64,000 bases of DNA, taken from the NCBI RefSeq assembly GCF_001316005.1, contig NZ_BBBJ01000011.1, positions 1 to 64,000 of the forward strand, given 5' to 3'. Positions 9,777-53,320 of the stretch are shown here, piece after piece. The stretch comes from Vulcanisaeta distributa JCM 11217. GTDB lineage: Archaea; Thermoproteota; Thermoprotei; Thermoproteales; Thermocladiaceae. The notes beneath the pieces were generated by a model. It did no database searches, was not told the origin of the DNA, and saw nothing but the letters and a program-made list of their open reading frames with translations. Position 1 is the stretch's first letter; the number at the start of each line of letters is the position of its first letter. Position numbers and translations under genes: made by a program.

Positions 9777-9792
9777 TAGGATAGGAATCCTA
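9777..9792 (-). promoter_or_regulatory. cobalamin-regulon operator before cobT
   Basis: Perfect inverted repeat TAGGAT-TCCT-ATCCTA read on the minus strand. The TATA-like ttataag (9793-9799) touches its outer edge, and the cobT ATG lies 7 bases beyond its inner edge. Site, spacing and TATA contact match those in front of cbiF, btuF and cbiZ. It overlaps the 3' end of panE. Confidence 0.85.
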
Positions 9793-10633
9793 CTTATAAG
9801 AACTAATCTCCAACGCCTTAACCAACAACCAAAGCACGTAATTAACAGGAGTATTAACACCAACCTCCCTACCCTTAATCACTATGGCCCCCGTTTATGT
9901 AATCAACCTCAGTCCTCCGGCGATTCAGCACGTCCTGCAGCATAGATGAGTAATTATTCCTCGTAGTTTCCGCAATCCTTAAAGTCTCGGCCAACGGATC
10001 ACTGGGTAGCTTAATGCCTAGCCTACTAACGACTTCAACACCCTCCTTAACCACGGCCACCGCCAATGCCTTGGCATTGGAATCCTCGAGAATTACGCCA
10101 TTCCTAGCCCTCAGAATGGCCGTTACTGGGTTAATGGCTGCGTTAACGATCACCTTCAACCACCTGTAAGGCTCAATGTCATTAACCACCCTGACATTAG
10201 CACCTCCGGCCTTTAGGGCATCGGCAACCTCACCCACTGAACTCGGCAGTATTACCTCACCAACGCCCCCCCTGACCTCAGCCACACCACCACTCCTCGT
10301 AACGCCATACGTAATGACAGCACCATAACCAACGCCAAGCCTCTCCCTGATCAATTCAACGCCACCAATTCCGTTTTGAAATACCACGGGGATGTTAACC
10401 ACCTTATCGATTATGGACTCCGTATCGTAAGCCTTAACGGCAATTAGGGTATACTTAACATCACTGGGTAATTTATCGACAAGCCTCACCCTGACCTCAT
10501 ACTCCCCCCCACCGAATTTAATAAGGTAACGACCATAGCGGGTCCTCGTCACGACATACGGCACGTAACCGGCATTGTTGAGGAAGTAGGCGAGGAGCAT
10601 CCCCACACCGCCAAGTCCAATTATTCCAAACAT
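9790..10633 (-). CDS. panE: 2-dehydropantoate 2-reductase
   Basis: NADPH-dependent reduction of ketopantoate to pantoate. A Rossmann start GIIGLGGVGMLLA with GxGxxG, AVKAYDTESII, a catalytic-Lys region RWLKVIVNAAINPVTAI near residue 170, and NNYSSMLQDVLNRRRTEVDYINGA near the C-terminus with the family's substrate-binding Ser and Glu. One extra C in the run 9887-9891 (5, expected 4) cuts the tail; restored, the frame continues AIVIKGREVGVNTPVN to TAG at 9790-9792, 280 residues. It is divergent from queE. The 3' end overlaps the cobT operator and promoter. Confidence 0.93.
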
Positions 10634-10684
10634 CAGTGATTCGTGGTTAACCCTTAAAAATAAGCGTTATACACGCGATAGTCC

Positions 10685-11341
10685 GTGAGGGTTATCGAGA
10701 TATTTAGGTCATGGCAGGGCGAGGGCCCCAACGCGGGTAAGGAGGCCGTCTTTCTAAGGTTGGCCTTTTGCAACTTAAGGTGTTCGTGGTGTGACACTAA
10801 ATATTCGTGGTTTGGCGGGACTGAAATGAGTGTTAACGATGTTTATGATGCAATAATGAAGATAGCCGGTAACGTGAGGCACCTGGTGGTGACAGGTGGT
10901 GAACCACTTTTATGGCGTCGAGAACTACTCCCACTGTTAAGCCTTGTTAAGGCCCAAGACTTCTTCGTGGAGGTTGAGACGAATAGCACGCTTAAGCCTG
11001 GTGAACTCGTTAAATACGTAGATGAATTCAACGTATCGCCCAAGCTATCTAACTCGGGCATTTCAGTAAGGCTTAGGGTTAATGAGTTGGCCATTAGGGA
11101 TTTCGTGACCAGCGGCAAGGCCATCTTTAAGTTCGTTGTTGATAAGCCTGGGGATATCGATGAGGTCCTTTGGTTTATTAATAAATTCAGTATACCACGT
11201 GATAAGGTTTACTTAATGAGCCAGTGCACGACCCGTGAGGAGTGCATTGCCAAGGATGAGGGCATTACCAAGCCCATGGCAATGAAGCTCGGCGTTAATT
11301 ACACACCGAGGCTCCATATTTTAGCGGGGGGGTTTAGGTGA
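10685..11341 (+). CDS. queE: 7-carboxy-7-deazaguanine synthase (radical SAM)
   Basis: Converts 6-carboxytetrahydropterin to 7-carboxy-7-deazaguanine on the way to archaeosine. The substrate loop FRSWQGEGPNAGKEAVFLRL precedes FCNLRCSWCD, the radical-SAM CxxxCxxC cluster motif at about residues 29-36, and VVTGGEPL is the SAM-binding GGE motif. The frame is intact at 218 residues from GTG 10685, though a 7-G run close to the end (11330-11336) makes the last residues doubtful. It precedes GAT-queC on the same strand, the next enzyme of the pathway. Confidence 0.94.
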   Translation: MRVIEIFRSWQGEGPNAGKEAVFLRLAFCNLRCSWCDTKYSWFGGTEMSVNDVYDAIMKIAGNVRHLVVTGGEPLLWRRELLPLLSLVKAQDFFVEVETNSTLKPGELVKYVDEFNVSPKLSNSGISVRLRVNELAIRDFVTSGKAIFKFVVDKPGDIDEVLWFINKFSIPRDKVYLMSQCTTREECIAKDEGITKPMAMKLGVNYTPRLHILAGGFR

Positions 11342-11420
11342 AGGGCTCTGGTCTACAAACGCAATCAAAACCGTCAAAGACAAACTAAGGCTTAAATACA
11401 CATGCATAGCCCAGGTCAGG

Positions 11421-12925: not shown

Positions 12926-13037
12926 TGCGGCGTCTGGTTTTAAACCCAATGCTGGAAAATTAAGTTAATGAGTGTTAAGGTTGGTAGGATTAAGTATGGG
13001 AGTTTCGCCTATGTTGGTAGGATAAGGGTGAGGCTGG

Positions 13038-13457: not shown

Positions 13458-13666
13458 TTTCGCTGGCGCCTTTTTATAGTCATGGCTGTAGCCAACCACA
13501 TCATTGACTACGCGGCTCACCATCCCTGCCCTAAATAATGGAAATTGACTAGGCACGGCGTGGCGGTAGACTCCATATTCCTAGGCATAGTTGCGCTGGT
13601 GAATTGATGGAATACTTTTAATCATTATAATATTATGTTAATTGTATTGACGATATCTATTGTATT

Positions 13667-14811: not shown

Positions 14812-14868
14812 AGACTAATCACCGTGTTTAGTACTTCGTTCTTCATCGATTCCATTAATTCAATCACC

Positions 14869-15294: not shown

Positions 15295-15302
15295 TATGAT
15301 TA

Positions 15303-15369
15303 ATTGTTTAAAGAAAAATTTAAAAGTCTTTTTTCACTATTAACCTAGTATGTCCGTGTATTGTTTAAA
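15303..15369. promoter_or_regulatory. two ATTGTTTAAA half-sites between purE and purL
   Basis: ATTGTTTAAA occurs at 15303-15312 and 15360-15369, one near each divergent promoter. The decamer equals the half-site of the 26-bp palindromes near purC/purD and purS. The inner part also supplies AT-rich TATA-like sequence, so base composition explains some of the match. Confidence 0.5.
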
Positions 15370-15380
15370 TAAAAAATTAA

Positions 15381-18932: not shown

Positions 18933-18934
18933 GG

Positions 18935-26619: not shown

Positions 26620-26621
26620 GT

Positions 26622-36329: not shown

Positions 36330-36345
36330 TAGGGTTGTTATCCTA
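36330..36345 (+). promoter_or_regulatory. cobalamin-regulon operator before cbiG (one mismatch)
   Basis: TAGGGT-TGTT-ATCCTA: right half perfect, left half with G for A at position 5. TATA-like cttataaa abuts it at 36322-36329. GTG start of cbiG lies 4 bases downstream. Confidence 0.75.
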
Positions 36346-36349
36346 CATC

Positions 36350-37343
36350 GTGTCGGCTCTGGAGAGATTATGGAGAGGTGTGCTTATTGTTTATGCTAGC
36401 AATGCCGGTGCTGATACCGCCAATAGGCTATTTAAGTTGTTGAGGAGGGTTGGCGTACCGACGGTGGTGATTAAGTATGACGGTGATTTAAGCAGGTACT
36501 GGGGCTGTTTCGACGCCATAGTCCTCGTGATGGCGTTGAGCGGTGCCGTCAGGCTAGTTTGTAAATACGCTAAGTCTAAGGTTGTGGATCCAGCCGTAGT
36601 TGCCATTGATGATGGGGGGGGTAGTACGTAATACCAATATTGAGCGCCCATTGGGGTGCCAACGAGGTCGCTGAAGCAATCGCTGAGTTAATGGGGGGCC
36701 GAGGCCGTGATAACCACGGCGGCCGAGTACATGGGCATTACGGGCATTGAGGAACTAGCCAGGCTTCTTCACTGTGACATTATCAATACCGAGGAATTAC
36801 CAAGCTTCTACTCAGCGCTCCTCGGTGGTAAACCAGTATGTATCGTCGGCATAGATAAATTACCAAGTGGTGTCAAGGGTAACTACATGGTTGGGCTTAA
36901 TACGGAGTGTGAATACGCCGTGGTCGTGGGTGATACACAACAATCATTAGGGGGGGGTATCAGGGTGCTGCGGTGCATGCCGTATAAGGTGATCATTGGG
37001 GGGGTTGGGCTTATGAATGAGGCCGGCGTTGATGAGGTAATTAAGGCCATAAGGGCTGTGTTGGATAGGCTCGGCATTGAAGTCAATAGGGTCTTGACCG
37101 TGGCCTCGATAAAGCCGAGGGTCGGCGAAGCAGCCAAGGCATTGGGCTTACCCTTTAGGTTAGTAGGTGTTGATGAATTGCGGAGAATCGATTACGGATG
37201 CGCCACACCGCCAAGCGATGAGCTAAGAAGGCTAGGCATTAGGGGGTGTTGCTGAGCTTGCGGCATTAGCCGCGGGAGGAACCTCACTATTACTTAGGAA
37301 GATCGTTGTTGGGAGGGTCACGGTGGCCGTGGCGAGGGTTTAA
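36350..37343 (+). CDS. cbiG: cobalt-precorrin-5A hydrolase
   Basis: Opens the delta-lactone of cobalt-precorrin-5A. GVLIVYASNAGADTANRLF, FDAIVLVMALSGAVRL, ISAHWGA-type segment (ILSAHWGANEVAEAIAE after repair), EAVITTAAEYMGITGIEELA, and a C-terminal VNRVLTVASIKPRVGEAAKA are characteristic. Three breaks (8-G run 36613-36620, near 36692-36697, and 37243-37247). The usual GIGCRRGT segment reads IIGVGLMNEAGVDE, without Cys. Starts leaderless at GTG 36350. First gene of the cbi island. Confidence 0.9.
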
Positions 37344-37376: not shown

Positions 37377-38063
37377 ATGCTGTACATAATCGGCGCTGGA
37401 CCTGGCGATCCAGGGCTAATAACCGTTAAGGGCCTCAACGTACTACGCTCAGTTGACACGGTGGCCGGTTGGGGTAGTGTGCTTGATAGGTTTGGTGAAT
37501 ACCTCGTTGGTAAGAGGATCATTAGGCTTAGTTATAGGAATGAGGCAGAGGGCCTTAAGGAACTAGTGATCAGCGCCGTCAATGGTGATGCGGCACTGCT
37601 AATACATGGGGATCCCTCGGTGTCAGAGTCACAATTAATATCCAAGATAACGCAGCTATGCAGGGAGTACGGGGTTAATTACGAGGTAATACCAGGCGTC
37701 TCCTCGGTAAATGCGGTATTGGGGTTACTGGGTATTGACTTAGACTCCTCCGTATTTATATCCCTGCATGTGAGGGGTTCTTTAGACGATAGGCTGAGGG
37801 AGCTTAAAACAATATTAAAGGTACTGAGGAGGTTCATCATTGTATTACCACCTCCATACCCACATGGGCCACGGCTGATCGCCAAGACGCTTCTGGATTT
37901 GGGTTGCGACCCTGAGGTCATAATAATTGAAAGAGCCACGTATAACGACCAAAGAATTATGAGGGCCAAGGCCTCAAGCGTTATAAACTTAAGTAATGAG
38001 TTTAGTGATTTAACAATCATGGTAATACCGCCCTGCAGCTGTGATAGTAATTCTTTTAAATAG
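37377..38063 (+). CDS. cbiE: cobalt-precorrin-7 C5-methyltransferase
   Basis: SAM-dependent tetrapyrrole methylase of 228 residues, intact. It begins MLYIIGAGPGDPGLITVKG with the invariant SAM motif. LIHGDPSVSESQLISKI and VIPGVSSVNAVLGLLGIDL follow, as in CbiE rather than CbiH or CbiF. It works with CbiT, whose gene is downstream. Its last codons overlap the first operator of the cbiX-C unit. It is a useful control for sequence quality, because its Gly codon is GGA and the GPGDP motif is normal. Confidence 0.93.
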   Translation: MLYIIGAGPGDPGLITVKGLNVLRSVDTVAGWGSVLDRFGEYLVGKRIIRLSYRNEAEGLKELVISAVNGDAALLIHGDPSVSESQLISKITQLCREYGVNYEVIPGVSSVNAVLGLLGIDLDSSVFISLHVRGSLDDRLRELKTILKVLRRFIIVLPPPYPHGPRLIAKTLLDLGCDPEVIIIERATYNDQRIMRAKASSVINLSNEFSDLTIMVIPPCSCDSNSFK

Positions 38064-38074
38064 GATGTATGTCC
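38061..38074 (+). promoter_or_regulatory. degenerate cobalamin-regulon half-site before cbiX-C
   Basis: TAGGAT-GTAT-GTCC: left half perfect, right half degenerate. TATA-like ttttaaa abuts at 38054-38060. Lies 24 bases upstream of the full site. Confidence 0.45.
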
Positions 38075-38084
38075 AGTTTTTAAG

Positions 38085-38100
38085 TAGGATATGAATCCTA
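38085..38100 (+). promoter_or_regulatory. cobalamin-regulon operator before cbiX-C
   Basis: Perfect TAGGAT-ATGA-ATCCTA, overlapping the presumed ATG start (38091) of cbiX-C. TATA-like tttttaag at 38077-38084. Confidence 0.8.
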
Positions 38101-39149
38101 CATCGGTACTCGTAATAACCCATGGATCCCGCAGATCTGAATTCCTAGATTGGTTCAATGATTTAGAACGTTACATTAAGGGCAGGTTGGGTGGCTTGGG
38201 TTTGATGGCTCATGTTAGTATTGCTCATAATGAGTATTCAAGCCCTAACTGGAGGGATTCATTAAGGGAGCTTCTTGCTCTGGTACCAAGCGCGTTGTGA
38301 TCGCCCTAGCGTTTCTAGGCCCTGGTAATCACGTGATTAGGGACATAATGGGGTCCCTGGGTGTTCAGGAGTTTAATAAGTGGGTTAGGGCATCGTGGGG
38401 GGTGGTTACGAGTTTGAGGTTTACGTTACAAGGCCGCTAATTGACTCAGCGCTTGTTAAGGAGGCGTTGCTTATGAGGATAGTCAACGCCCTGAACACAT
38501 CCGTGAACGTGGATAGGTACATCATGGATCCCGAGGAGATTGAAAGAAATAGCTAGATAAGGTGGTTGAGTTGGTCCGTAGAGAGCTTGGTACTAACGAT
38601 GAATCAATTATTAGGCTTGTGGCCAAGGCCGTGTTTGCCACCGGTAACCCCCCCGCCCTTATTAAGTACATGCATGTGGATCCCGAGGTATTTAATGTAT
38701 TTAGGGAATTAATTAATGGTAACGCCACGGTAATTACTGATGTTAAGATGGTGGCGGTCGGCGTGAGGTGGGGGGGTAACACCGTGACCCTGATAGACGA
38801 TGTGGAAGTCACAAAGTTAGCAGTGGAGCTTGGCATCACGAGAGCCGCAGCATCAATGAGGATGGGGGGGCTGAGCAAGTTCAAGCCCGCGATTCCAATT
38901 ATCGGTAATTCACCCACGGCCCTTATCGAGGTAATTAAGATGATTAGGGAGGGCTTGGAGGTCCCCATGGTAATCGCGACGCCGCCGGGCTTCACCAATG
39001 CTGTGGACGCGAAGGAGGAGTTAATCAGGATGGGGGGGATACCTAGCGTGGTCGTGAGGGGGGGTACGTATGGGGGGGGTAGTAACGTGGCTGTGGCCGT
39101 ATTTAATGAATTACTAAGCATTGTAAGGGAGGGGGGGCATGGCGGGTAG
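38091..39149 (+). CDS. cbiX: CbiX-CbiC fusion: cobaltochelatase plus precorrin-8 methylmutase
   Basis: N-terminal 130 residues resemble small CbiX: VLVITHGSRRSEFLDWFN with the metal-binding His, SIAHNEYSS, and ALAFLGPGNHVIRDIMGS with the second His. A link (DPEEIERNSLDKVVELVRRE) leads into CbiC: VITDVKMVAVGV, GITRAAASMRMGGLS, IIGNSPTALIEVIKMI and IATPPGFTNAVDAKEELIR. Breaks near 38293, 38395-38405 and 38552. After repair the two domains share one frame, so a natural fusion is likely. The CbiC region has VFATGN where the family has a catalytic His (IHATGD), to be checked. Ends overlapping cbiH. Confidence 0.85.
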
Positions 39150-39874
39150 GCTCTACGTAGTTGGCATTGGACCAGGAAGCCCCCGAGTTAAGGACTGTGG
39201 CCGCAATTAATGCAATCAGAGACAGTGATGTAATTATTGGCTATAACACGTACATAAATCTAATTAGCGATTTAATTAATGGTAAGGAAGTAATTAGATC
39301 AAGAATGCATGAGGAGGTCATGAGGGCTAAGCTTGCCATTGAGAAGGCCCTCGATGGCCATGTAGTCTCGCTGGTGAGCGGTGGCGATCCCCAGGTCTAT
39401 GGATTGGCGAGTCTCGTCCTCGAGTTAATAAGTAAGGAGGAACTTGACTTGAGACCTACCGTAATACCTGGGGGGGTCACCGCGGCCCTCGCGGCGGCAG
39501 CCAGGTTGGGCGCGCCCCTCAACATGGACTTCGCGGTTGTAAATCTGAGCAATCTATTGGTTAGTGATGAGGAGATTATGATGAGGATTAGGGCGGCGGC
39601 AAGCGGCGACTTCGTGATTGCCCTGTACAACCCGATCAGTAAAGACGTACTTATCAAAGCCATGAATCTAATATCCATGTTTAGAAATGCATCAACGCCG
39701 GTGGGTATAGTCAGGAATGCCTATAGGGATGGCGAGTTCGTGATAACGACAAACTTAGGTAACTGGATGAGGTATTTAGAGGTCATAGATATGAATACGA
39801 CATTAATAATAGGTAACTCAAGAACCTACGTTTACAGAGGACTCATGATAACGCCAAGGGGTTATAGGGTATGA
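39139..39874 (+). CDS. cbiH: cobalt-precorrin-3B C17-methyltransferase
   Basis: SAM-dependent ring-contraction methylase. ATG 39139 gives MAGRLYVVGIGPGSPELRT once the 5-C run at 39180-39184 is set to 4. IIGYNTYINLISDLI, GHVVSLVSGGDPQVYGLA, and VIPGGVTAALAAAARLGAPL follow; the second Gly of PGGV comes from a 7-G run at 39470-39476. Then FVIALYNPISK and TPVGIVRNAYRDGE. 245 residues. Overlaps cbiC by 11 bases and cbiD by 4. Confidence 0.94.
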
Positions 39875-40935
39875 GCGTGATTGATTATTTCAAACGCTTC
39901 GGCATAACCACGGGGGCAGCGGCTGCGGCTGCCGCTAAGGCGGCAACCATCGCATTAATTAGGGGTGTTACGCCCAGTAGCGTCACAATACCAACGCCTG
40001 TTGGGCTTAGGCTTGAGGTCTCCATTGATAGGGTCTTTACGATTGGCGATTATGTATGCGCCGATGTGCGTAAAATCGCCGGTGATAACCCAGACAGCCT
40101 AAATAACGCGGTGATTAGGGCCTGCGTCCATTCAATAAATGAACAGGTAATAAAAATCAAAGGTGGGCATGGCGTGGGTAAGGTCGTGAGACCAGGTTTA
40201 AGCATCCCCCCCATGGGTGAACCGGCCATTAGCCCCCCCACGGCTAAGCTCATGATTGAAAATGCTGTTAGGGAGGTCGTTAATGCCGGTGTTGAGGTCA
40301 TAATAGAGGTACCCAATGGCGAGGAGTTGGCTAAGGCAACGATGAACGAGGACGTCGGTATAGTCGGCGGCATAGCTATACTTGGGACGACTGGGATTGA
40401 ATGGCCTATCAGCAATGAGGCCTTTGTCCAACATATCAAGGCCCAATTAACGGCATTAAGGGGGGGTAAGTACGATGGTGTAGTGATTGCCTCAGGGAAT
40501 AGGGCTGTTAACTACGCTAAGGCAATTTACGAGATGCCCGTGGTTAAGGTAGGCGACTTAATAGGCGCCTCTGTTAAAGAGGCCATTGGGCTAGGCTTCC
40601 ATAGGGTAGTCATTGCGCTGCTGCCCGGCAAGGCCGTCAAGTTGGCGGCTGGTTTAATGAATACTCATAGCTCAATTGGAGATGCGCGTATTGAGACGAT
40701 TACCTGGGCAGCAGTAATGGCGGGGATTAATGGAGAATTACTACGGAGGATAGCGGTCTCAAAGACTGTTGGTGAGGCGTTGCATTACCTTGGCGATGCG
40801 GCGGGTAAGGTTATGAGGGTGATAGCCGAGAGGGCATTGGGCAGATTAAGGAGGTTTGGCAATGCCTCTCTTGAGGTCGTGATATTTAGTGAGGATGGGG
40901 GGGAGGTACTCGCGAGGGTTAATAGCCATGACTAG
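39871..40935 (+). CDS. cbiD: cobalt-precorrin-5B C1-methyltransferase
   Basis: Methylates C1 of the corrin ring in the cobalt-early route. Intact 354 residues. RFGITTGAAAAAAAKAATIA at the start, GHGVGKVVRPGLSIPPMGEP, EVIIEVPNGEELAKATMNED, and GGIAILGTTGIEWPISNEAF are classical. It overlaps cbiH at its start and cbiT at its end. Confidence 0.96.
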   Translation: MSVIDYFKRFGITTGAAAAAAAKAATIALIRGVTPSSVTIPTPVGLRLEVSIDRVFTIGDYVCADVRKIAGDNPDSLNNAVIRACVHSINEQVIKIKGGHGVGKVVRPGLSIPPMGEPAISPPTAKLMIENAVREVVNAGVEVIIEVPNGEELAKATMNEDVGIVGGIAILGTTGIEWPISNEAFVQHIKAQLTALRGGKYDGVVIASGNRAVNYAKAIYEMPVVKVGDLIGASVKEAIGLGFHRVVIALLPGKAVKLAAGLMNTHSSIGDARIETITWAAVMAGINGELLRRIAVSKTVGEALHYLGDAAGKVMRVIAERALGRLRRFGNASLEVVIFSEDGGEVLARVNSHD

Positions 40936-41587
40936 CCCTGCCTGGCCCTACATAACTCCTGGAATACCTGATGAGCTGTTTGAGCGTGTTGAGGGCATAC
41001 CAATGACTAAGGAGGAGGTTAGGGCGTTGGTGATTTCTAAGCTTAGGCTAAGGGAGGACTCGAGGGTTCTGGATGTCGGTTCAGGGACTGGCTCAGTGGC
41101 TGTGGAGGCTGCCCTAATAGCGAGGAGGGGTCTCGTATATGCTATTGATAGGGATGAAAGAGCCATTGAGTTAACCCGCAGGAATGCCATGAGGTTTGGC
41201 GTGGGTGATAGAGTCGTTGTAATACATGGCGAGGCGCCAGAGGCCCTGGACAAAGTACCTAATGAGGTTGACGCGGTATTCATAGGTGGTAGTGGCGGTA
41301 AGTTGAGGGACATAATCACTGGTGTATGTGGTAAATTAGCCGTGGGCGGCCGTTTAGTGATTGACGCGATAACCCTAGAGAATGCATCGCTCGCTTTAAC
41401 TATCATGGCTGAGTTAGGCTTCGTAAACGTGGAGGTTACTGAAGTCGTGATAGCCAAGGGCTTTAGAACAAGCTTAGGCACGGCAATGCTCTCGAGAAAC
41501 CCAATATTCATAATAGTCGGTGAGAGAGACGAATGCCGGCCAACGCATTCAATGGCGAGCATTAAGGATGCCATTAAACGGTGGTGA
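40928..41587 (+). CDS. cbiT: cobalt-precorrin-6B C15-methyltransferase (decarboxylating)
   Basis: Class I SAM methyltransferase. WPYITPGIPDELFERVEGIP, MTKEEVRALVISKL, VLDVGSGTGSVAVEAALI (SAM loop) near residue 48, YAIDRDERAIELTRRNA and DAVFIGGSGG. Intact, 219 residues. ATG 40928 was chosen because the text before PAWPYITPG is in the cbiD overlap. Acts with CbiE on ring carbons C5 and C15. Confidence 0.95.
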   Translation: MTSPAWPYITPGIPDELFERVEGIPMTKEEVRALVISKLRLREDSRVLDVGSGTGSVAVEAALIARRGLVYAIDRDERAIELTRRNAMRFGVGDRVVVIHGEAPEALDKVPNEVDAVFIGGSGGKLRDIITGVCGKLAVGGRLVIDAITLENASLALTIMAELGFVNVEVTEVVIAKGFRTSLGTAMLSRNPIFIIVGERDECRPTHSMASIKDAIKRW

Positions 41588-41589
41588 TC

Positions 41590-42299
41590 ATGACACATGA
41601 AAAAGGCGGCAATGGGGGGGTACCTAGGCTATACATCATTGGGCTGGGGGGGCCGGGCGACCCAGGTTTAATCACGGTTATGGGTGCCGAGGTCCTCCGC
41701 CAGGTCAAGCTAATTTTCATACCCTATTCCACCGGTAGCAATAGGAGCTTGGCGTATACAATAGTTAGTAGGTACGTGAGTTCCGACGCCAGATGATATT
41801 CCTGGGATTCCCAATGGTCAAGGAACCAAGCGCCGAGACTTTAATGGCTAATGCGAGCGTGATATGCGATGGGTTACGCAGGTACGGTAGTGCGGCGTTT
41901 GTGGTTCTTGGCGACCCATCACTATACAGCACCTTCTACAGGGTCAAGCCATTCATTAATTGTGACTATGAACCCATAATCATTCCTGGGGTCTCCTCAA
42001 TAACGGCATGCGCCGCCAAGGCCGGTATTGACCTGGCCATAGGCGGTGAGTCTATAGTCATACTCGTGGGCGATGATACCGAGAGGTTAACGAGGGTTAT
42101 GGACTTCGCCGACACGATAATAGTGCTTAAGGGCAGCACCGACATGGGCGGTATAGCGGCATTACTTAGGGATCATGGGTATTCCGTGACCTACGCCAGG
42201 AGGTGTTACATGGATGGCGAGTTAATAATTAGGGAGCCAAGCGATGAGCTGCCCAGGGACTATTTCTCGCTTATCATTGCTAGAAGGATTTATAAATAG
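41590..42299 (+). CDS. cbiL: cobalt-factor II C20-methyltransferase
   Basis: SAM-dependent tetrapyrrole methylase. RLYIIGLGGPGDPGLITVMG at residue 12: the family has GLGPGDPG, and the second Gly comes from the 7-G run 41646-41652. IFIPYSTGSNRSLAYTIV, FVVLGDPSLYSTF and IIPGVSSITACAAKAGIDLA fit CbiL. A lost base near 41793 splits the frame (DAR then MIFLGFPMVKEPS). About 236 residues. Immediately downstream of cbiT. Confidence 0.93.
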
Positions 42300-42312
42300 G
42301 ATTTACATCCTA
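42297..42312 (+). promoter_or_regulatory. cobalamin-regulon operator before cbiF
   Basis: Perfect TAGGAT-TTAC-ATCCTA. TATA-like ttataaa (42290-42296) touches its left edge; ATG of cbiF is 5 bases beyond the right edge. The site overlaps the end of cbiL. Confidence 0.85.
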
Positions 42313-42317
42313 CATCG

Positions 42318-43135
42318 ATGGTTGGGAAGGTAATATTCGTGGGCGCGGGGGGGCCTGGCGACCCTGAACTAATTACTGTGAAGGGAATGAAGTACCTCCA
42401 ACAGGCTGATGTCATTATCTACGCAGGTTCCCTGGTAAACCCGGAAGTACTGAGGTGGGCTAGGCCAAATGCGGAGATCTATAATAGTGCGTCAATGACG
42501 CTTGAGGAAATCGTGAATATAATGATTAGTAGGGCTAGGGAGGGCAAGTTGGTGGTTAGGCTTAAGTCAGGCGATGCAAGCATATATGGCGCATTGCTTG
42601 AAGAAGTTGTCGCCCTCAGGGAGGCCGGCATACCGTATGAGGTGGTGCCTGGAGTAACGGCAGCGCTGGCCGCAGCCGCAGTCCTAGGCATTGAGTTAAC
42701 CCTACCCAAGATAGCCCAGACGGTGATCATAACCAGGGCATCGGCTAGGGTGCCGATGCAGGGCTCGATAAAGGACTTCGCTAAGGCACTACTCATAGGC
42801 GCCACAATGGCCATATACACCGGTGTCCACTTAATTGATAAGGTTGTTAAGGAGTTAAGGGAGGCCGGCGTACCTGATGATACGCCGGTTGTGGTGGTTT
42901 ACAAGGCGACATGGCCCGACCAATTAATAATCAGGGGGCACGCTGGCCGACATTGCCGAGAAGGTTAAGAGGGCTAGGATAACCAAGGACTCCGTGATAA
43001 TAGTGGGCAAGGCCGCGGACCCCCTCCATCCTAGACCTGCCACTAAGATCGAGCGTCTACGACCCAAGGCACACCCACAGCTTTAGGCCGAAGCTAGGAT
43101 CAGTAGCACAGATGTTGAGTAAAACGATTAATTAG
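42318..43135 (+). CDS. cbiF: cobalt-precorrin-4 C11-methyltransferase
   Basis: MVGKVIFVGAGGPGDPELIT has the extra Gly caused by the run 42347-42353. VIIYAGSLVNPEVLRWA, VVRLKSGDASIYGALLEE, VVPGVTAALAAAAVLGIELT and VIITRASARVPM are typical of CbiF. Two extra bases (5 G at 42935-42939, 5 C at 43020-43024) break the tail; restored it reads RGTLADIAEKVK, then SSVYDPRHTHSFR, the CbiF terminal signature. About 272 residues. Own operator and promoter. Confidence 0.94.
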
Positions 43136-43164
43136 GACGTGAAAAGCTTAATACATTAACCTCA

Positions 43165-43527
43165 GTGAATAAGAACGTGGGTATAGCATTCGCCGAAGCC
43201 GAGATAAATGGAGTTAAGTTCAGGGCTCTCGTGGACACGGGCTTTAATGGGGGGGACGTATTAGTTAGGCGCGAAATCGCTAAGAACCTGGGGGGGCTCC
43301 AGGTAATTGGCAGGACCAAGCGGAAAACCGCGGACAACAGAGTCGTGGAGCTCGACGTATCATACGCCAGGTTAAGGCTTTATGGTGAGGAGGGTTACGT
43401 GATCGTAGAGATAATCGATGACTCGCCAGTCGACGTACTAATAGGTGTTAGGGCCCTTGAGGCCCTAGGCTTCATAATTGACCCAGCAACCGGGACATTA
43501 AGGAAGATAGGCCTAATAGCGGTATAA
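43165..43527 (+). CDS. retropepsin-like aspartic protease family protein
   Basis: 120 residues from GTG 43165. LVDTGFNGGDVLVRREIAKN contains the DTG active-site motif of single-domain clan AA proteases, which act as dimers; VEIIDDSPVDVLIGVRALEA followed by LGFIIDP matches the second family block. It lies in the cobalamin island after cbiF, without its own operator, so read-through expression is possible. Whether it is a protease is not known. Relative at 13038-13457. Confidence 0.7.
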   Translation: MNKNVGIAFAEAEINGVKFRALVDTGFNGGDVLVRREIAKNLGGLQVIGRTKRKTADNRVVELDVSYARLRLYGEEGYVIVEIIDDSPVDVLIGVRALEALGFIIDPATGTLRKIGLIAV

Positions 43528-43716: not shown

Positions 43717-43732
43717 TAGGATGCTTATCCTA
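43717..43732 (+). promoter_or_regulatory. cobalamin-regulon operator before btuFCD
   Basis: Perfect TAGGAT-GCTT-ATCCTA. TATA-like ttttaaa (43710-43716) abuts it. ATG of btuF at 43740 follows after 7 bases. The rest of 43528-43710 shows no gene. Confidence 0.85.
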
Positions 43733-43739
43733 CCACGTG

Positions 43740-44860
43740 ATGCCGAGCGATAAATCGAAAAACGGTAAGGTCACTTCCGCATTAATCACGATAATAGTGG
43801 TGGCAATAGCCTAGCAGTAACGATAGCAATATATGAGTGGAATATACATAGGTCACTGGTCAAAACCCCCCCCTCTTACACTTATTATTTATCGCCTAAT
43901 TTTGAAATCGTTAGTTATAATGGTACTTCCGTTACTGTTGAGAATTACGGATCTAACGTGACCATAGGCATACCCGTTAAGAGAATCGTGGCTGATAACA
44001 CGGTTGCCATGCAAGTATTAATTGACATAGGGCGGGTAACACAATAGTTGGGATTGAGGGCTATGCCATAGAGCTCCCTTGGCTCTTTGGGAATCTAACG
44101 GCGTTACCAGCGTGAGCCAGGGAATGTGGTCGTGGAATTATGAGGAGATGGTTAACTTAAGGCCTGACCTAGTCATAGAGTGGAGTTACGGTGTCCAGAC
44201 AGTGAGGAGTAAGCTGGCTCCATTCGGCATCCCGGTGATTGGTTATGGCCCCCAGGACAACTTGACGTCATTCATCTACCTCCTCGGACTAATCACTGAC
44301 CATACCAGCAATGCCGTGAGGCTCATAAACTTCATCAATAATGTGCACCACGTATTAAGTGAGGGTTTAAGCAAGGTCTCCACTAGGTATAAGGCTTACG
44401 TAATCTTTGACTACGAGTATAGCCTATGGTTCACGTCAGGTCCTCTGGGGGGGATCCATATTGGGCTGCCGTAAATGCCGGCCTACAGCCATGCTTCAAT
44501 AAGTCCATGCAGGTTGAGCCCGGCGCAGTGCTTCAGTGTAACCCAGACGTCATTATTGCGGTTACGTGGAATTTAAACCCGCACTCACCAAATGCCACGG
44601 CCTATTGCGAATCAATAATCGAGACTATTAAGGACAACCCAGTGCTTAATGCGACAAACGCCGTTAGGTACGACAGAGTCATCATCATACCCGGCTACCT
44701 AACCGAGGGACCTCCGCAGGTGATAGTCTCGCTATACATAGCGAGTCAGGTGTACCCAAGCGCCTTCAGTGGCGTTAACGCCACGCAGTACCTCAATCAG
44801 TACTTTGAGGAGTTCCTGAGAACCGCCGAGCCAGGTGGTGTCTGGTGGTGCAGTGGGTGA
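43740..44860 (+). CDS. btuF: corrinoid ABC transporter binding protein (BtuF-like)
   Basis: Membrane-anchored substrate-binding lipoprotein-type protein of the periplasmic binding family. The N-terminus KSKNGKVTSALITIIVVAIA is a signal/anchor helix. Then VKRIVADNTVAMQVLIDIG, EEMVNLRPDLVIEWSYG, DNLTSFIYLLGLITD and LQCNPDVIIAVTWN, as in BtuF/FecB. Breaks at about 43812, 43865-43872, 44031, 44080 and 44447-44453. About 370 residues. It overlaps btuC. The operator and the cbi neighbourhood support a corrinoid substrate. Confidence 0.85.
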
Positions 44861-45897
44861 GGTGGGGGGGGATAGTGGCGGTTAGTGGTTTGGCGCTCCT
44901 CCCGTTGGTCGTCCTTGACATCATGATTGGAGCCTATGGAATTGGGCCAATGACCGTCTTAAAGGCTGTTATTGACGGCATAGACCCAATATTCAACGTG
45001 CCACGCGACGTATACCTAGTGGTTTGGCAGATAAGGCTACCGGAGGCCCTGGCATCGCTAATACTCGGCGCATCGCTTGCATCAGCCGGCGCCGTGTTGC
45101 AGGGCATACTGAGGAATCCACTGGCGTCAACCTACACGCTCGGCGTCTCCGCCGCAGCGGGCTTTGGAGCGCCGTGGCCATACTCCTAGGCGCTGGTTAT
45201 GTTATTAGGTACTACCTGCCTGTGATAACAGAGCCGTACCTGGTGATCATTGGCGCATTTATAGCGGCTTCACTCGCAGCATTGCTCGTTTACTTCCTAT
45301 CCTTCATTAGGGGTGCGTCGCCGGTCACGATAATACTGGCGGGCGTGGCCGTGATGTTTGTATTTAGCACGGGGACCTCGCTCATCCAGTACTTCTCTGG
45401 CAATCCTGATGTGAGCCACGCCATCGTCATGTGGATGTTGGGTAGTGTAACTAACGTGACCCTCAACTACATACCATACATGGCCCTATCCCTACTTGCA
45501 ATACCATACTACGTCTTAATATCTTGGAGATTAAATGCACTTAACCTTGGCGATGATGTTGCCCACAGCCTCGGAATTAATGTTAGGAATACGAGACTGG
45601 CTGCAATGCTTGTGGCGGCATTCCAGCTGCGGCCACGATAAGCTTCGTTGGTCTAGTGGGCTTTATCGACTTGGTGATACCGAACATAGCGAGGGTCTTG
45701 GTGGGCAGTGACAATAGGTACTTGATACCGGCATCGGCGTTGATGGGCGCCGACATCGCGGTACTCGCCGACGTGGTTTCAAAGACCTTAATACCGCCAT
45801 ACGTGATACCCATAGGCGTTGTACTCTCAATGATTGGCGCCCCATACCTACTCGCAATAATAATATCGAGGGGGGGGCTAGGTATGGTTATGAGTAA
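44845..45897 (+). CDS. btuC: corrinoid ABC transporter permease (BtuC-like)
   Basis: FecCD-family permease with about ten membrane segments. IRLPEALASLILGASLASAG, LQGILRNPLASTYTLGVSAA near residue 92, GASPVTIILAGVAVMFVFS, and LGINVRNTRLAAMLVAA then FVGLVGFIDLVIPNIAR (coupling region) are diagnostic. Breaks near 45170, 45628 and 45871-45877; with the last run shortened it ends SRGARYGYE, overlapping btuD. Starts GTG 44845 or 44848. Confidence 0.9.
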
Positions 45898-46659
45898 GGC
45901 CGTACTCGAGGTTAGGGACCTCGAATGCGGCTATGATAGGCCTGTGATTAGGGACGTCAACATTAACGTTGATGGTGGGGGGGAGTTGGTGGTGCTAATG
46001 GGGGGGCCTAACGGTGCTGGCAAATCCACACTAATTAAATGCATCCTAGGCATGGCGAGGGTTTTCGGCGGCTCCATTAGGGTTAATGGTGAGGATGTGT
46101 TGAGGATGGGAAGGCGTGAGATTGCTAAGCTCGTCTCCTACGTGCCGCAGAATCACGCAGTTGCATACCCAGTTAGGGTTTTTGACGCGGTTTTGCTGGG
46201 TAGGTTACCACACATGGCTTTAGGCCGAGTAAGCTGGATATTGACACGGCCCTCAATGCCATGAGGAGGCTCGGCATTGAGCACCTAGCCAATAAGTTGG
46301 TCACTAGATTAAGCGGCGGTGAGGCGCAGCTCGTCCATATCGCTAGGGCAATTGCGCAGGGAGGGGGGGTCCTAATGCTCCTTGACGAGCCTACGAGCAA
46401 CCTAGACCTAAAACACCAGGTGGCGGTCATGGAGACCTTGATTAGGATTGCACGTGAAGACGGAATTGCAGTGCTGGCGACAATGCATGACATAAACCTA
46501 GCCCTTAAGTATGCGGATAGAATTTACGTAATGCGCGAGGGCAGGATAGTCGCTGAACTAAGCCCAGGCGATATTAGCCCGAGTATTATCGAGGAGGTGT
46601 ATGGGGGGGTTAAAACCACGGTGATCGAGCACAATGGGAGGCCCGTGGTAATCGTATGA
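45890..46659 (+). CDS. btuD: corrinoid ABC transporter ATPase (BtuD-like)
   Basis: ABC ATPase with Walker A LMGGPNGAGKST near residue 38, Q-loop YVPQNHAV, signature LSGGEAQLVHIARAI near 141, Walker B LMLLDEPTSNLD near 162 and switch His in TMHDINLALKYADRI. Walker A has one Gly more than the family (LMGPNGAGKST), from the 7-G run 46000-46006. One break near 46228-46235. 256 residues. Overlaps btuC and the chelatase gene. Confidence 0.93.
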
Positions 46660-48636
46660 ACCGCCGTGTCGTTTTCCCATTTCCAGCCATTGTCGGTATG
46701 GAGAAGGCTAAGTTGGCCCTCCTCGCCGTTGCCGTGAACCCATCAATAGGCGGCGTCCTGCTTAGGGGGGGTGATAAGGGTACTGGGAAGACGACGCTCG
46801 TTAGGTCCTTCGCGGATGTATTGCCTGAGATCGAGGTCGTGGCCGACTGTCCATTTAACTGTGATCCACATGACCCGCAGCTCATGTGTGATTCGTGCTA
46901 TGCAAGGTACCAGCGTGGCGAGAAGTTGCCGGTGGCTGTTAGGAAGATGAGGGTTGTTGACATGCCACTCTCGATAACCGTTGATAGGCTCATCGGCACG
47001 CTGGACATTAGGAGGGCCATAACGGAGGGCGTGAGGGCGTTACAGCCAGGTCTCCTTGCTGAGGCGAATAGGAATATTCTATACATCGATGAGGTTAACC
47101 TACTCGATGACTACATAGTTGATGTAATCCTAGACGCGGCGGCCTACGGCTGGAATATCGTGGAGAGGGAGGGCGTGTCTGTAAGGCACCCCCGCCAGGT
47201 TCATACTAATAGCCTCCATGAACCGGAGGAGGGTGAGCTTAGGCCGCAGCTCCTCGATAGGTTTGGCCTAGTGGTGGATGTGGAGACTCCTCAGGACCCA
47301 GGGGGGGTTAGGGCTGAGATTGTTAGGAGGGTTGAGGAGTTCAATAGGGACCCAGAGGGATTCTACAGGAGGTGGGAGCGAGATCGAGAGGATTAGGGAG
47401 AGGATCAAGATGGCTAGGGAGTTGGTTAGGGATGTTGAGGTGCCGGAGGACCTACTTAAGCTCTTAGCCGAGACCGTGGTTAAGCTGGGCATTAGGACAA
47501 GCCGTGCAGAGATAGTCACCATCAGGACTGCGAAGGCGTTGGCCGCCTTAAATGGTAGGGCTAGGGTGGCGATGGAGGATCTGCAGAAGGCCATGGAGCT
47601 GGCACTACCCCCCCACAGGCTCAAGGCTAGGCCCTTCGAGAGGCCCAGGATGCCGATACCCCCCCCACAGCCAATGCTCAACGAAGGTAATTCCCAAGGT
47701 GGGCGGCAAATGCCTAGCTCAATGCACAACCAACAGGGCGGTGCAGTGCGAGGTGGTGAGGGTAATGAGCAGGGTGGACTTAATGGCGGGAGTAGTGTAG
47801 GTGATGAGGCTAATGCTTATGGTGATACCAGGAGGTATGGAGTATCCAGCGTGGATATTCCTGTGGAGTTTAGGAGGGAGCTAATACGTACTGGGGGGGA
47901 CCGCGGCCTTAAGTCGAGGTCCTCCTTCAGGAGAGTTGTTGGTCAGCCCCACGGTATCCCGTACATGTACCTACCGCCGAGGAATGGGGGGGATTTAAGG
48001 GACATAGACCTCACCGCATCTATCGTCCACGCATCGCTCAGGGGGGGCTCAGGCCTACCCATTAGGGTTAGCTTGGGAGACCTGATGGTCAGGGTTAGGA
48101 GGTCTAGGACCCCCCCTAGGGTCTCGCTCATAATACTTGACGCCAGCGGTAGTATGAATTTCATGAGGAGGATTGAGGTTGCGAAGGGGGGGCTCGTGAG
48201 GAGGATAACCGAGGAGTCCTACGTGAGGAGGAGCTATGTGGGGGGGCTAATAAGCTTCAGGGGGGGCCGTGGTGTTGATGTGGTCATAGAGCCCACGAGG
48301 AATTATTGGCAGGTCCTAAACGCCCTAGATGAGTTACCAAGCGGTGGGGGGGCAACGCCAATGCCCGCGGCGCTGGCCTACGCAGTTGATTTAATCAAGA
48401 GATTAAACCTCAAGCTAAAGGGTGATTACTGGGTTTACCTAATAACTGATGGTAAGGCAAACGTGCCCCTCACGGGTGATGTTAGGGAGGAGGTTGAGAG
48501 GTTCATGGGTGAGTTGAGTAGGTTGGCTAGGGTCGTCGTTTACGACACAAGGCCGCGGCTCCTCTACGACCCATCAATAAGCCACATGGACATACTAAGC
48601 AGGTACGCAATTGACGTTGTTAGGGTTGGTGAGTAA
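46656..48636 (+). CDS. ChlI-ChlD type chelatase AAA+/VWA fusion
   Basis: One polypeptide of about 655 residues. The AAA+ part has Walker A GDKGTGKTTLV near 40, ADCPFNCDPHDP, NILYIDEVNLLDD (Walker B) and a sensor block ASMNPEEGELRPQLLDRFG-like after repair. A Gly/Gln/Asn-rich linker (47640-47860) leads to a VWA domain with the MIDAS motif LDASGSMN near 495 and LITDGKANVPL. Breaks near 47197-47215, 47300-47306 and 47380-47395. Together with CobN this forms a class I chelatase of the CobNST/ChlHID type. 7-base runs insert Gly or Pro (RGGDKG, LPPHR). Confidence 0.9.
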
Positions 48637-48637
48637 C

Positions 48638-51600
48638 ATGCCCAGGTGCCGCATACTACTAATCACAAGGTCAGTCCTCACTGAGGGGGGGTTTTATGAA
48701 GCGTTAAGTGAGGCGTTAGGCGGAGTTGGCGATGTAGACCTTGAAGTCATATACCTGGAGAGTTACGAAGTTAATGAGGTCTCTAGGCAATTGAAGGCCG
48801 TGAGGAGACCTGACATTGCCTTGCTAAGCTTAATGGGGGACCACCCAGAACTACTAAACTACCTAAGGAATTGGTTACGCGAGACTCCCATTGTCTTTAC
48901 ACTAAGTACGGGTTTAGAGACTATAATGCTTACGAAGGTTCGTAATTACGAGTTAGGCGGATTCTTAATTAATTCAGTATCTACGTATAATGACACTATT
49001 AAAACTACGAATTACTTTGACCCAAAGACCCTTTCTCACGTTCTTCATGAGGCATCCAAGGCCCTTTCAGACCCCATATCCCATTACGTTAAGGATTGGG
49101 CATTATTAATTGATTATTGGAGGAATTGGCGTAAAGAAAACATAGTCAATATGATACGCCTAGTGCTGAGGAATTACTGCGGCATAGCCGTACCAGCGCC
49201 AGAGCCTCCCATCGAGTTAGGGGATTACTGGATTGAGGATTATGAGGGGGGGTACGTATACTATAGCGCTGACGAACTTCTGAAGCAGAGAGATCTCAAG
49301 TCGCCGCTCATAGTGTTAATGGCCTACTCTGGCCAGTCCTATGATAAGGCTAAGAAGGTAATTACCCATATAATGAAGAGGAGAGTCGACACGATCTCGC
49401 TTCTTTCTAACTATGGCTATACATTGAGGGGGGGCTTAAGGAGCTGTTTAATAATGCTGATGTGGGGGGGCATACTCGACCTTCAGTGGTTCAGGTTCGT
49501 TAGGAACCGAGAAGATGAGGGCGTTCTGCTAAAGTTCAATGTTCCTGTCATGAACCGGTGGTCATGTACGGCAGGGACATAGATGCGTGGATTAAGGATC
49601 CAACGGGGGGGCTTAGCCCCGTTGAGGTTATATATGCCGTGGCCATGCCCGAGGTTGATGGCGCCATAGAGCCCATACCAATAGCGGGCCTCGTTGATAA
49701 AAATGGCGTGAAGGCTATGGAGGTAATTCAGGATAGAGTTGATAGGGTCCTCAATAGGGTTGATAAGTGGTTGGCCCTTAGACATAAGTCTAACGCGAGT
49801 AAGAGGATTGCCATTGTGATGTATAATTATCCACCCGGTGAGGAGAATATTGGTAGAGCCTCATACCTCGACACGCTTAAGTCGGTCGAGGTACTGTTGA
49901 GGAGATTAAGAGAGGAGGGCTATGGTGTTAAGGCCATTACCGCTGAAGCCATTAAGGAATTCTTCGTGAAAAACCCAAACTCCGGTAGGTGGTCGGCCGG
50001 CACCGACTATGTGCTGGTTGATCAAACAACGTATATGGACTTATTCAATAGGTTAAGGCCGGAGCTTAGAGATAAAGTCATTAAGCAGTGGGGTGAACCC
50101 CCCCTGGCAATATAATGGTTAAAAACGGATACCTCACACTGCCCGTGCTTGATCTAGGCAATGCAATTATCGTATTGCAACCAAGTAGGGGCTGGCATGA
50201 GGATCCTAACAAGATTTACCATGACTCGGAATTATACCCGCATCACCAATATGTCGCACTTTATAGGTGGCTTGAGGAGGTTTGGCGCGCCGATGCCGTT
50301 ATTCACGTGGGGGGGACCCACGGTACACTCGAGTTCCTCCCAGGTAAGCAGGTCGGCCTATCCTCCAGCTGTCCCCCCCAGATGCGCTCCTCGGCAATTT
50401 ACCAAACATTTATATCTACCATGTGGTTGTCGTCGGTGAAGGTACAATCGCCAAGAGGAGGTCATACGCCGTATTGATTAGTCACCTCTCACCCAGGATG
50501 ACCGAGGCGGGCCTCAGTGATGATCTCAAGAGGATACGTGATTTAATCGATGAGTACAGAGAAGCAAACGTTGTTGATCCACCTAGGGCAAGCGCTGTGC
50601 TCAAGACCATAGAGGGCATTGCAGGTAAGTATGGGCTAGAGGTTAAGGACCTCGATGTGCTTTACGACGAGCTTATGAGGATGGAGCACTCGGCAATGCC
50701 GTATGGGTTGAGGGTACTCGGCATGGAATTAAGTGATGATGAGATCGTTGATTACTTAACGCTGGCGTTAAGGCGTGATAGGGGTGTCGTTAAATCGCTG
50801 CATAGGCTCCTGGCCGAGGCAATGGGGGGGTATAACTATGATGACTTACTCGAGCGCCCAGGTAAGTATGCGAATATCCTAAGGTTAATAGACGAGGGGG
50901 GGTTAAAAGGATTGTCAGGGCGTTAATTACGAACGGCATTGATTTGGCAATTAAGGTAGCTGAGGAATATGGGATTAGGAGTGATGACGCGAAGACCGTG
51001 CTGAATTATGCACGTGACATAGCAGAGAGGTTAAGGCTATCGCCTAAACTTGAGCTTGAGAACGTAATTAGGGCTTTGAGTGGGGGGGAGTACATACCGG
51101 CCGGCGTTGGCGGCGACTACGTAATGGACCCCCCCGATGTCTTACCTGCAGGGAGGAACTTCTACGCGCTCGACCCACTTAAGATACCCAGCGATTCGGC
51201 ATTGGAGTTGGGGGGGCTAGGATTGCGGAGGATAGTATTAGGAAATACTTGGAGCAGTATGGTAAGTACCCCCCCGAGACTGTGGGCGTCGTTGTTTGGG
51301 GCGGTCAGGAATCAAGGACTAGGGGCGTCACTATTGGGCAGGCGCTGCGGTATCTTGGCGTTAAGCTTATTCATAGGCCAGGTAGTTGGGATCCAAGACT
51401 TGAGGTAATACCACTTAAGGACCTCGGTAGGCCTAGGATAGATGTCGTTGTTACGATGAGCGGGGGGGTGTTTAGGGACATGTTCCCGCACTTAATATCA
51501 TTGATTAATAAGGCCGTCAAGCTCGTTGCCGAGTTGGATGAGCCGTTGGATATGAATTACGTCCGTAAGCACTACCTCGAATTGAGGAGTAGGTATGGTG

Positions 51601-52357
51601 AGGCTTCCTTAATAAGGACTTTCAGTGAGAGGCCCGGTGACTATGGGAATAAGGTTAATCACTTGATAGAGACATCGAGTTGGAGGGCGGGTACGGACAT
51701 CGCCAGTGTTTATACCATGTATATGGGCTATGGCTATGATGGAGACATGCGTGGGATAAGCTCAAGCGAGCTTAAGGACCTATTCAAGGCATTGCTCAGC
51801 AAGGTGGACATCACAAGCCAGGTCCAGTCGAGTGTTGACTACTCAATAATCGACATAGATGATTACTACGCATACCTGGGCGGCCTATCCAAGGCGGTTG
51901 AGGTATACTCAGGCAGGAAGCCCCTTATCCTATACACGGACCTAACGCAGGATAGGCCTAGGATGATGACTGCGAAGGATGCCGTTGGGTTCTACGTGAG
52001 GACTAGATTACTCAATCCTAAGTGGATCGAAGGCATGAGAAAGCACGGTTACATGGGCGCCAGAACATTTCGAAGCGCGTTGAGTATGTTCTCGGGGGGG
52101 TTGCCGTGACTATGAATGCCGTGGATGACTGGGTTTGGGACAGGATTGCGGAGACGTACGTGTTTAATGAGGAGATGAGGAGGTGGTTTACTGAAGTTAA
52201 TCCCTACGCATTGGAACAAATCATTAAGAGACTATATGAGGCGCATGAAAGGGGGGGCTTATGGCATACATCAGAGGACGTCATACGTAAATTAAGGGAG
52301 ATATACACAGAGTTAGAAAATGCGCTGGAGGGAATCGGCCAATGGGGGGGCAGGTAA
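48638..52357 (+). CDS. cobN: cobaltochelatase large subunit (CobN/ChlH family)
   Basis: About 1240 residues. Blocks: YLESYEVNEVSRQL, FVLSTG-like region, DIDAWIKDPTGGLSPVEVIY, VMYNYPPGEENIGRASYLDT, DSELYPHHQYVALYRWLEEV, and HVGGTHGTLEFLPGKQVGLS near residue 557, followed by GRPRIDVVVTMSGGVFRDMF and a C-terminal RAGTDIASVYTMYMGYGYDG. The family has HVGTHGT; the extra Gly is from run 50309-50315. Breaks near 49440, 49557, 50110, 50350-50385, 50910, 51230 and 52095. Its Co2+ substrate is presumed; Mg-chelatase relatives exist. Confidence 0.92.
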
Positions 52358-53274
52358 CTAACTTAGTTATTTACGAGCTCCACTACCTAGCATTCGCCAT
52401 ACTGGGCATAGTACTGGGTGTCCTTACGATGTACTACATAATGAGTAAAGAAGCGGTAATAAGGGCCATAGGTAGGCTGGGGGGGCGGTGGATAACGGCG
52501 TTGTCTGGGTTACCCAGCTATTGTTCCTTACCCTTCATTGTCTCCCTCGTTAGTCCATCCACCGCATCCTCAATGCTCATAGCCATGTATAAGGACGGTA
52601 GATTGACGCGTAGGGAATTGTACATATCATCACTCATTAATTCCTTCCCAGCCCTACTCTCGCATTTAAGGACCCTCATGCCGGTGCTACTGAGTACCAT
52701 GGGGGTCTACGGTCTACTATACCTCCTAATCCTTATGACCCTCGGCTTAATGCAGATGATCATATTCGCAATCCTTGGGAGAAGAGGTTCAAGTAGGGAT
52801 AGAGACGAGGACGGTATAGCCGAACTTACAGAACAGGCAGTGAACGGTTCGTTTAATTTAGGAAGGGTCTTGAAATTGATTGTAAGGATAGTACTGGTTA
52901 CGTCAATAACGAGTGTTGCGTTAACGGTCATTGAGCTTTTAGGACTCAATAACTACCTCAGTGATTATCTATCGCATATGTTCGGTACCCTAAGTCCATA
53001 CGCAGTAAGCCTAATAGTGGCTTATGTAATTAGTGACAATGCAGCCTTCGCCGTCGCGGGCACACTCATTAATGAGGGACTCAGCGGCATCCTAATAATT
53101 AAGTGGTTGCTGATTGGCTACGTGGCCTTATCACTAACACGTGGAATTAGGCACAACGCGCCCTACTACCTCGGCATTTACGGGCTTAAGGATGGCGTTA
53201 CCATAATGCTCATCTCCATACTAACCAGGGCACTCCTGGCGTTACTTGTCTTGGGAATTCTCTACCTTATCTAG
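52342..53274 (+). CDS. Gate-domain membrane protein
   Basis: Intact 310-residue protein with about eight hydrophobic segments. AIGRLGGRWITALSGLPSYC, then SLPFIVSLVSPSTASSMLIA and IVAYVISDNAAFAVAGTLIN are typical of the nucleoside-recognition/Gate family, also related to the FeoB channel part. It overlaps cobN by 16 bases and precedes cbiZ, inside the regulon; this points to transport of cobalt, a corrinoid or a lower-ligand precursor. The substrate is unknown. Confidence 0.75.
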   Translation: MGGQVTNLVIYELHYLAFAILGIVLGVLTMYYIMSKEAVIRAIGRLGGRWITALSGLPSYCSLPFIVSLVSPSTASSMLIAMYKDGRLTRRELYISSLINSFPALLSHLRTLMPVLLSTMGVYGLLYLLILMTLGLMQMIIFAILGRRGSSRDRDEDGIAELTEQAVNGSFNLGRVLKLIVRIVLVTSITSVALTVIELLGLNNYLSDYLSHMFGTLSPYAVSLIVAYVISDNAAFAVAGTLINEGLSGILIIKWLLIGYVALSLTRGIRHNAPYYLGIYGLKDGVTIMLISILTRALLALLVLGILYLI

Positions 53275-53304
53275 GACTTTTCATAATGTGATAGTGCTTA
53301 TTAA

Positions 53305-53320
53305 TAGGATTTGCATCCTA
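53305..53320 (+). promoter_or_regulatory. cobalamin-regulon operator before cbiZ
   Basis: Perfect TAGGAT-TTGC-ATCCTA with TATA-like ttattaa (53298-53304) abutting; ATG 53328 is 7 bases downstream. Confidence 0.85.

Follow-up and report, generated by a model that had tools for sequence, protein, structure and literature searches.

Bacterial regulons controlled by B12 riboswitches comprise btu, cbi, cob and cobalt transport genes, a content similar to that of the archaeal system described here. Cobalt transport genes found with B12 riboswitches are described in the accessible part of PMC2667541, and an excerpt of PMC3794607 states that riboswitch motifs are known from few archaea. Little is understood of how archaea regulate B12. 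A predicted cobalamin regulon in Pyrococcus furiosus is listed under 'CblrR (unknown)', with no regulator named in the excerpt available (PMC10746257), and in Halobacterium salinarum the global sugar-responsive factor TrmB is described, again in an excerpt, as an activator of cob/cbi genes (PMC3794607). Here we analyse 64,000 nt of Vulcanisaeta distributa JCM 11217 (NZ_BBBJ01000011.1), this whole stretch being referred to as the window and its genome as G000, in which the palindrome TAGGAT-N4-ATCCTA recurs at the promoters of cobalamin genes. We propose, with a probability of about 0.7, that this palindrome is the operator of one dimeric regulator of cobalamin supply, most likely a winged-helix DUF4443 (PF14544, PH0730-like) protein.

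The regulon resembles that of P. furiosus in being a predicted, protein-controlled archaeal cobalamin regulon, but belongs to another phylum, and the likeness rests on a mention of the Pyrococcus regulon that comes without its motif or gene list in the excerpt. A protein-controlled archaeal B12 regulon having thus already been predicted, what is new here is a candidate binder of the operator. TrmB too, as described in the excerpt, is a transcription factor of an archaeon with cob/cbi genes among its targets, whilst the present regulon is dedicated to B12 and its site would lie between the TATA box and the transcription start. Unlike the bacterial riboswitch regulons it has a DNA palindrome at the promoter. 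No Rfam family matches the window at gathering score, and a first-pass annotation of the window had seen no riboswitch fold.

Results

A pattern search of the window returned five perfect copies of TAGGAT-N4-ATCCTA, at 9777..9792 (-), 38085..38100 (+), 42297..42312 (+), 43717..43732 (+) and 53305..53320 (+), and one copy with a single mismatch, the left half reading TAGGGT, at 36330..36345 (+), as the first-pass annotation had listed them. From base composition about 0.004 perfect sites would be expected in the window, and the whole genome (2.08 Mb) has seven against 0.13 expected and one match to a reversed-pattern control. Allowing up to two mismatches gave nine matches in the window against a shuffled mean of 3.85, and the two-mismatch matches at 16294, 25597 and 50193 were accordingly taken as background. 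The geometry described in that annotation also held up: each of the six sites has a TATA-like element abutting its left half, and the start codon follows 4-7 bases after the right half except at cbiX.

A search for exact matches covered the window's genome together with 40 relatives, 25 of these genomes belonging to the window's own family (Vulcanisaeta and relatives, hereafter f1). This family holds 71 perfect sites, compared with eight matches to the reversed pattern. All 71 were examined under a loose scripted TATA rule; 66 abut a TATA-like element, and the identical 66 precede regulon genes, namely a major facilitator superfamily (MFS) transporter (13), a second BtuF-like gene (btuF2, 11), cbiZ (6), the island btuF, cbiF, cbiX, cobT and nrdJ (5 each), cbiG (4), a tetratricopeptide repeat (TPR) protein (3), a btuF of genus g4 (2), and a NiCoT transporter and cobN (1 each). 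The MFS and TPR genes (16 of the 66 sites) were recognised through the motif itself and so provide no independent test, which the other 50 do. The remaining five sites, one each in G004, G005, G011, G016 and G024, have neither TATA element nor regulon gene and are about as many as the control leads one to expect; in G008 and G010 (99% complete) all eight perfect sites of each genome stand at regulon genes. Where tabulated (cbiX sites excluded), the first reading frame begins 2-9 bases past the site in 48 of 50 cases. The palindrome is therefore conserved at the promoters of most B12 genes of the family and rare elsewhere, and is not, as it might have proved, equally frequent at unrelated genes. 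The separate BtuF-like proteins match PF01497 and reach the BtuF model only below its cut-off, so that their B12 role is putative.

The expectation that the motif would be kept upstream of orthologous genes in relatives was borne out for cbi, btu and cob genes within f1. A limit is set by the sister family f2, which essentially lacks the motif even though 11 of its 15 genomes searched have cobT. The motif is thus a trait of the family and not of the order. Upstream DNA was read for six of the 11 f2 cobT loci; in G029 (L232) the divergent B12 promoter between cobT and a cbiX-like gene contains TTGGATGTGCATCCAC in AT-rich flanks, possibly a diverged operator, and a weak candidate.

The regulon extends beyond the island, since the two perfect sites that G000 has outside the window precede an MFS transporter and the second BtuF-like gene. 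With up to one mismatch G000 has 13 sites against eight in the reversed control. Six of these carry the mismatch; one is the window site at 36330, and the five outside the window (L008-L011, L013) were discounted, having by eye no abutting TATA element. A TATA-extended pattern with up to three mismatches gave 129 matches on both strands of the 25 genomes and 63 in the reversed control, so about half are background, and only a chosen, inspected subset was used. Within it, a radical S-adenosylmethionine (SAM) protein is preceded by a site in all five Vulcanisaeta genomes inspected (L118-L122), four in an identical three-mismatch form in close relatives and that of G004 differing at two positions. 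Extended-pattern sites also precede the TPR protein in G010, G012, G015 and G018, in addition to its perfect sites, a BtuF-like gene in G012 and G021 (two of the five such sites inspected in that genus), and cobT in G005, a genome in which a perfect site also precedes a NiCoT transporter leading into the cbi operon. G011 has no perfect functional site; its cbiZ-cobT, MFS and btuF2 genes have sites in which the core is mismatched at one position. In the loci read, a PfkB-family kinase gene comes directly after the MFS gene, and this pair might, at a guess, salvage lower-ligand nucleosides.

In genus g2 the site precedes nrdJ in all five genomes. This gene encodes an adenosylcobalamin-dependent ribonucleotide reductase (the L053 copy lies above the curated cut-off of TIGR02504), and it is separated from the operator in each genome by a leader of 180-199 bases (L052, L053, L267, L269, L272). 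The leader shows conserved blocks and a small open frame, and in the two loci of the five that were tested, L052 and L053, it has no Rfam match at the gathering threshold. The target of the g2 site could be a divergent methyltransferase gene, instead of or besides nrdJ. Another near-perfect palindrome, TTATAAATAGG..CCTATTTATAA, is common to two g4 genomes (L130 at G017:C12:27804, and G020:C11:35209), adjoins by eye an acyl-CoA-dehydrogenase-like gene in L130 and is perhaps the site of another regulator.

The candidate binder emerges from other families of the class. Searching 81 class genomes with the extended pattern gave two out-of-family matches beside DUF4430-type genes (G047 and G060), further two-mismatch matches, one each in G044, G054 and G067, being left out of inspection. 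DUF4430 is found in transcobalamin-type proteins, according to the part of PMC4350170 available. In G060 the neighbour of the DUF4430 gene codes for a winged-helix protein in which a DUF4443 domain is weakly matched, and class-wide a DUF4443 gene lies within 1.5 kb of DUF4430, as the next gene or one gene away, in 22 of 26 genomes with DUF4430, the others being G044, G045, G048 and G049. An S-component gene of an energy-coupling factor (ECF) transporter often stands first in the locus and is absent from it in G060 and G061, among others. The 27 DUF4430 loci (85.5 kb) contain 11 copies of the strict palindrome T.GGAW-N4-WTCC.A, where shuffling gives a mean of 0.34 and never more than 3 across 200 shuffles. 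Each of the 11 coincides with, or immediately precedes, the beginning of an S-component or DUF4430 gene. Its half-sites co-vary between lineages (TAGGAT/ATCCTA, TGGGAT/ATCCCA, TTGGAT/ATCCAA, TAGGAA/TTCCTA). When AT-flanked palindromes were sought in 49 out-of-family genomes, five sites were found against one in the reversed control; four stand directly at DUF4430/ECF genes (G047, G050, G053 and G060) and the fifth falls within a coding gene. The DUF4443 gene of G047 is on a different contig from the palindrome-bearing DUF4430/ECF locus. A scan of 324 genomes of the phylum outside the class gave 12 AT-flanked sites against 15 in the reversed control, none of the 12 loci being B12-related by eye; this is no proof of absence, since a pattern with AT on both flanks misses most Vulcanisaeta sites.

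Within f1, the occurrence of DUF4443 fits that of the functional sites. A profile search found a strong match (E 5e-39 or better, with some matches split or cut in the assemblies) in 19 of the 20 genomes of g1, g2 and g4, the genera with functional sites, including the window's genome, where the gene lies on another contig (G000:C7:74570-75145). The same search found DUF4443 in none of the five genomes of g3, which gave just helix-only matches with E above 5e-4; g3 also has no functional sites, and retains cobT in four of the five. Five aligned Vulcanisaeta DUF4443 proteins (A2) have six invariant cysteines, including a CxCxxC motif, which are missing from the ECF-linked members and possibly form a metal or cluster site.

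The first domain of the DUF4443 protein is a winged helix. The profile matches PH0730 of Pyrococcus horikoshii over nearly its full length (E 9.5e-27), and the predicted model of a Vulcanisaeta member (predicted local distance difference test score, pLDDT, 90) has a template modelling score (TM-score) of 0.71 to the structure of PH0730 (PDB 2p8t); it also resembles aspartyl-tRNA synthetases over about 115 columns. PH0730 is therefore a solved relative and member of the family, labelled a hypothetical protein, and its PDB title gives no function. In the literature available in part, PH0730 appears in one paper, within a family table, and no paper naming DUF4443 was found; a search that excluded most subscription papers and the regulon databases found nothing on DUF4443 as a regulator or on a B12 regulon in Thermoproteales.

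The transcription units behind the window's sites are largely those of a cobalamin island. On the minus strand, the operator at 9777 reads TAGGATTCCTATCCTA, with the TATA-like CTTATAAG abutting, and precedes cobT (8673..9769 (-), PF02277). This gene, called cobT-like in the first-pass annotation, is broken in the assembly into two reading-frame pieces, and its intact orthologue (L043) is a cobT above the curated cut-off of TIGR00303. The one-mismatch operator at 36330, which is perfect in the relatives G002, G003, G008 and G010, is followed after 4 bases by the GTG start of cbiG (36350..37255 (+), with PF01890 on 36707-37255), also broken in the assembly. The cbiX promoter has upstream elements at 38054..38076 (+), a TATA-like TTTTAAA and a half-degenerate second operator, TAGGATGTATGTCCAG. 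Its half-degenerate match at 38061 is a real second element: the relatives G010 (TAGGATTTCTATCCGG) and G008 (TAGGATTTTTATCCAG), also Vulcanisaeta, have better palindromes than the window at the same position. The operon cbiX-C, cbiH, cbiD, cbiT and cbiL (38091..42299 (+)), named from the NCBIfam names of the syntenic G010 genes, has its probable ATG start (38091) in the spacer of the perfect cbiX operator.

Farther along, the operator at 42297, with TTTATAAA abutting, stands 5 bases before the ATG of cbiF (42318..42968 (+)), whose frame breaks before the gene end. The operator at 43717 heads an operon of btuF, btuC, btuD and chlID-type and cobN-type chelatase genes (43737..52357 (+)), several with broken frames, the orthologues of which match PF01497, BtuC-type, TIGR02442 and BchH/CobN models. 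The operator at 53305 stands 7 bases before the ATG of cbiZ, whose first reading-frame piece spans 53328..53837 (+) (PF01955). Between these units a retropepsin-like aspartyl protease gene (43165-43527) lies within the island and has no operator, and a membrane protein without a Pfam match is encoded between cobN and cbiZ (52342-53274), a relative of which also adjoins cbiZ in G005. In the window (1-64000), G or C runs exactly 7 bases long number 169 and those of 8 bases 17, and the syntenic islands of two relatives have no G/C run of 7 or more. These runs are an artefact of the assembly by which many frames are interrupted, and may be the cause of the 67% completeness of the window's genome.

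Discussion

The proposal of the first-pass annotation that the palindrome is bound by a dimer fits the invariant half-sites with their free spacer, and also the concerted change of the two half-sites seen in other families. That this dimer would be the DUF4443 protein is argued from the linkage in other families together with co-occurrence in f1, and not from linkage in f1. Several observations weigh against the assignment. In f1 the DUF4443 gene lies away from B12 genes, and the 3.2 kb locus around it contains no operator; f2 carries DUF4443 without the motif, the gene there adjoining a citrate synthase or TIP49-type ATPase gene (named by eye); G001 (84% complete), the exception among the 20 genomes of g1, g2 and g4, has a site and no DUF4443, and G017 (g4, 76% complete) has DUF4443 and no perfect site. 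The joint absence of protein and sites in g3 amounts to one loss on the tree, and 16 of the 27 DUF4430 loci have no strict palindrome. A comparison of recognition helices by eye gave no simple helix-to-motif rule, and the helices differ between g1 and g2 despite the identical motif. Finally, a B12-dependent reductase under a B12-relieved repressor is unusual.

The absence of linkage and autoregulation in f1, and the f2 genomes with DUF4443 alone, would also suit a different binder of a real B12 operator, e.g. a metal-sensing DtxR- or ArsR-type protein, with DUF4443 merely travelling with ECF genes elsewhere. The TAGG...CCTA ends of the operator resemble DtxR boxes. This account is unlikely given that operator and DUF4443 share a small gene cluster in several other families and are both missing in g3.

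For the DUF4443 repressor that we favour, a mechanism can be proposed. Because a TATA-like element abuts the site and the start codon lies 2-9 bases past it, the regulated genes are probably leaderless, with the operator between TATA box and transcription start, and a bound dimer would block initiation by transcription factor B (TFB) and RNA polymerase. The repressor would release the DNA when cobamide is scarce. The content of the regulon points to cobamide as the signal, cobalt being the main alternative. A regulator of this kind responding to cobalt or another metal would explain the Ni/Co transporter and chelatase genes in the regulon, and the six invariant cysteines with CxCxxC in the Vulcanisaeta protein. 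The cysteines, however, are missing in the ECF-linked families; the regulon includes B12 uptake, cbiZ, cobT and the B12-dependent reductase, none of which is a metal gene; and G004, without a cobT match, retains its btuF2 and MFS sites. We therefore consider a metal signal improbable, to much the same degree as another binder.

A palindrome at a fixed distance from the start codon could also be an RNA or promoter-strength element (a hairpin, an initiator or one like the B recognition element, BRE) and not a protein operator. With archaeal TATA-to-start spacing, however, a site that abuts the TATA element lies upstream of the expected transcript start and is probably not transcribed. With just seven perfect sites genome-wide, and no Rfam match in the window, such an element is very unlikely; a riboswitch in particular was rejected on the position of the site and on the searches at the gathering threshold of the window, L052 and L053. 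Chance, or the copying around of one ancestral promoter, can hardly be the explanation, even though neighbouring Vulcanisaeta genomes are closely related and their sites not independent, since spacers vary freely around constant half-sites, different genera bear the site at different genes, and counts far exceed the controls.

We predict that the CblrR regulator of P. furiosus, known to us from an excerpt, is a DUF4443 protein. More broadly, the odds seem to us evenly balanced that the DUF4443/PH0730 winged-helix family are archaeal B12 repressors, sensing cobamide, binding TAGGAT-type palindromes located between TATA box and start, including the missing Pyrococcus regulator, and having sites that reveal new B12 genes. 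The motif flags genes not annotated as B12 genes, namely the MFS-kinase pair, the TPR protein, the radical SAM protein and the DUF4430 ECF systems. If the proposal is true, new B12 genes would include the first three, of which the MFS-PfkB pair may salvage lower-ligand nucleosides. Given a sharp motif, a family-wide regulon and a candidate whose relative has a solved structure, a single purified protein and a 30-base-pair DNA suffice to test the question. If true, the finding would put a name to the protein that controls the supply of B12 in these archaea.

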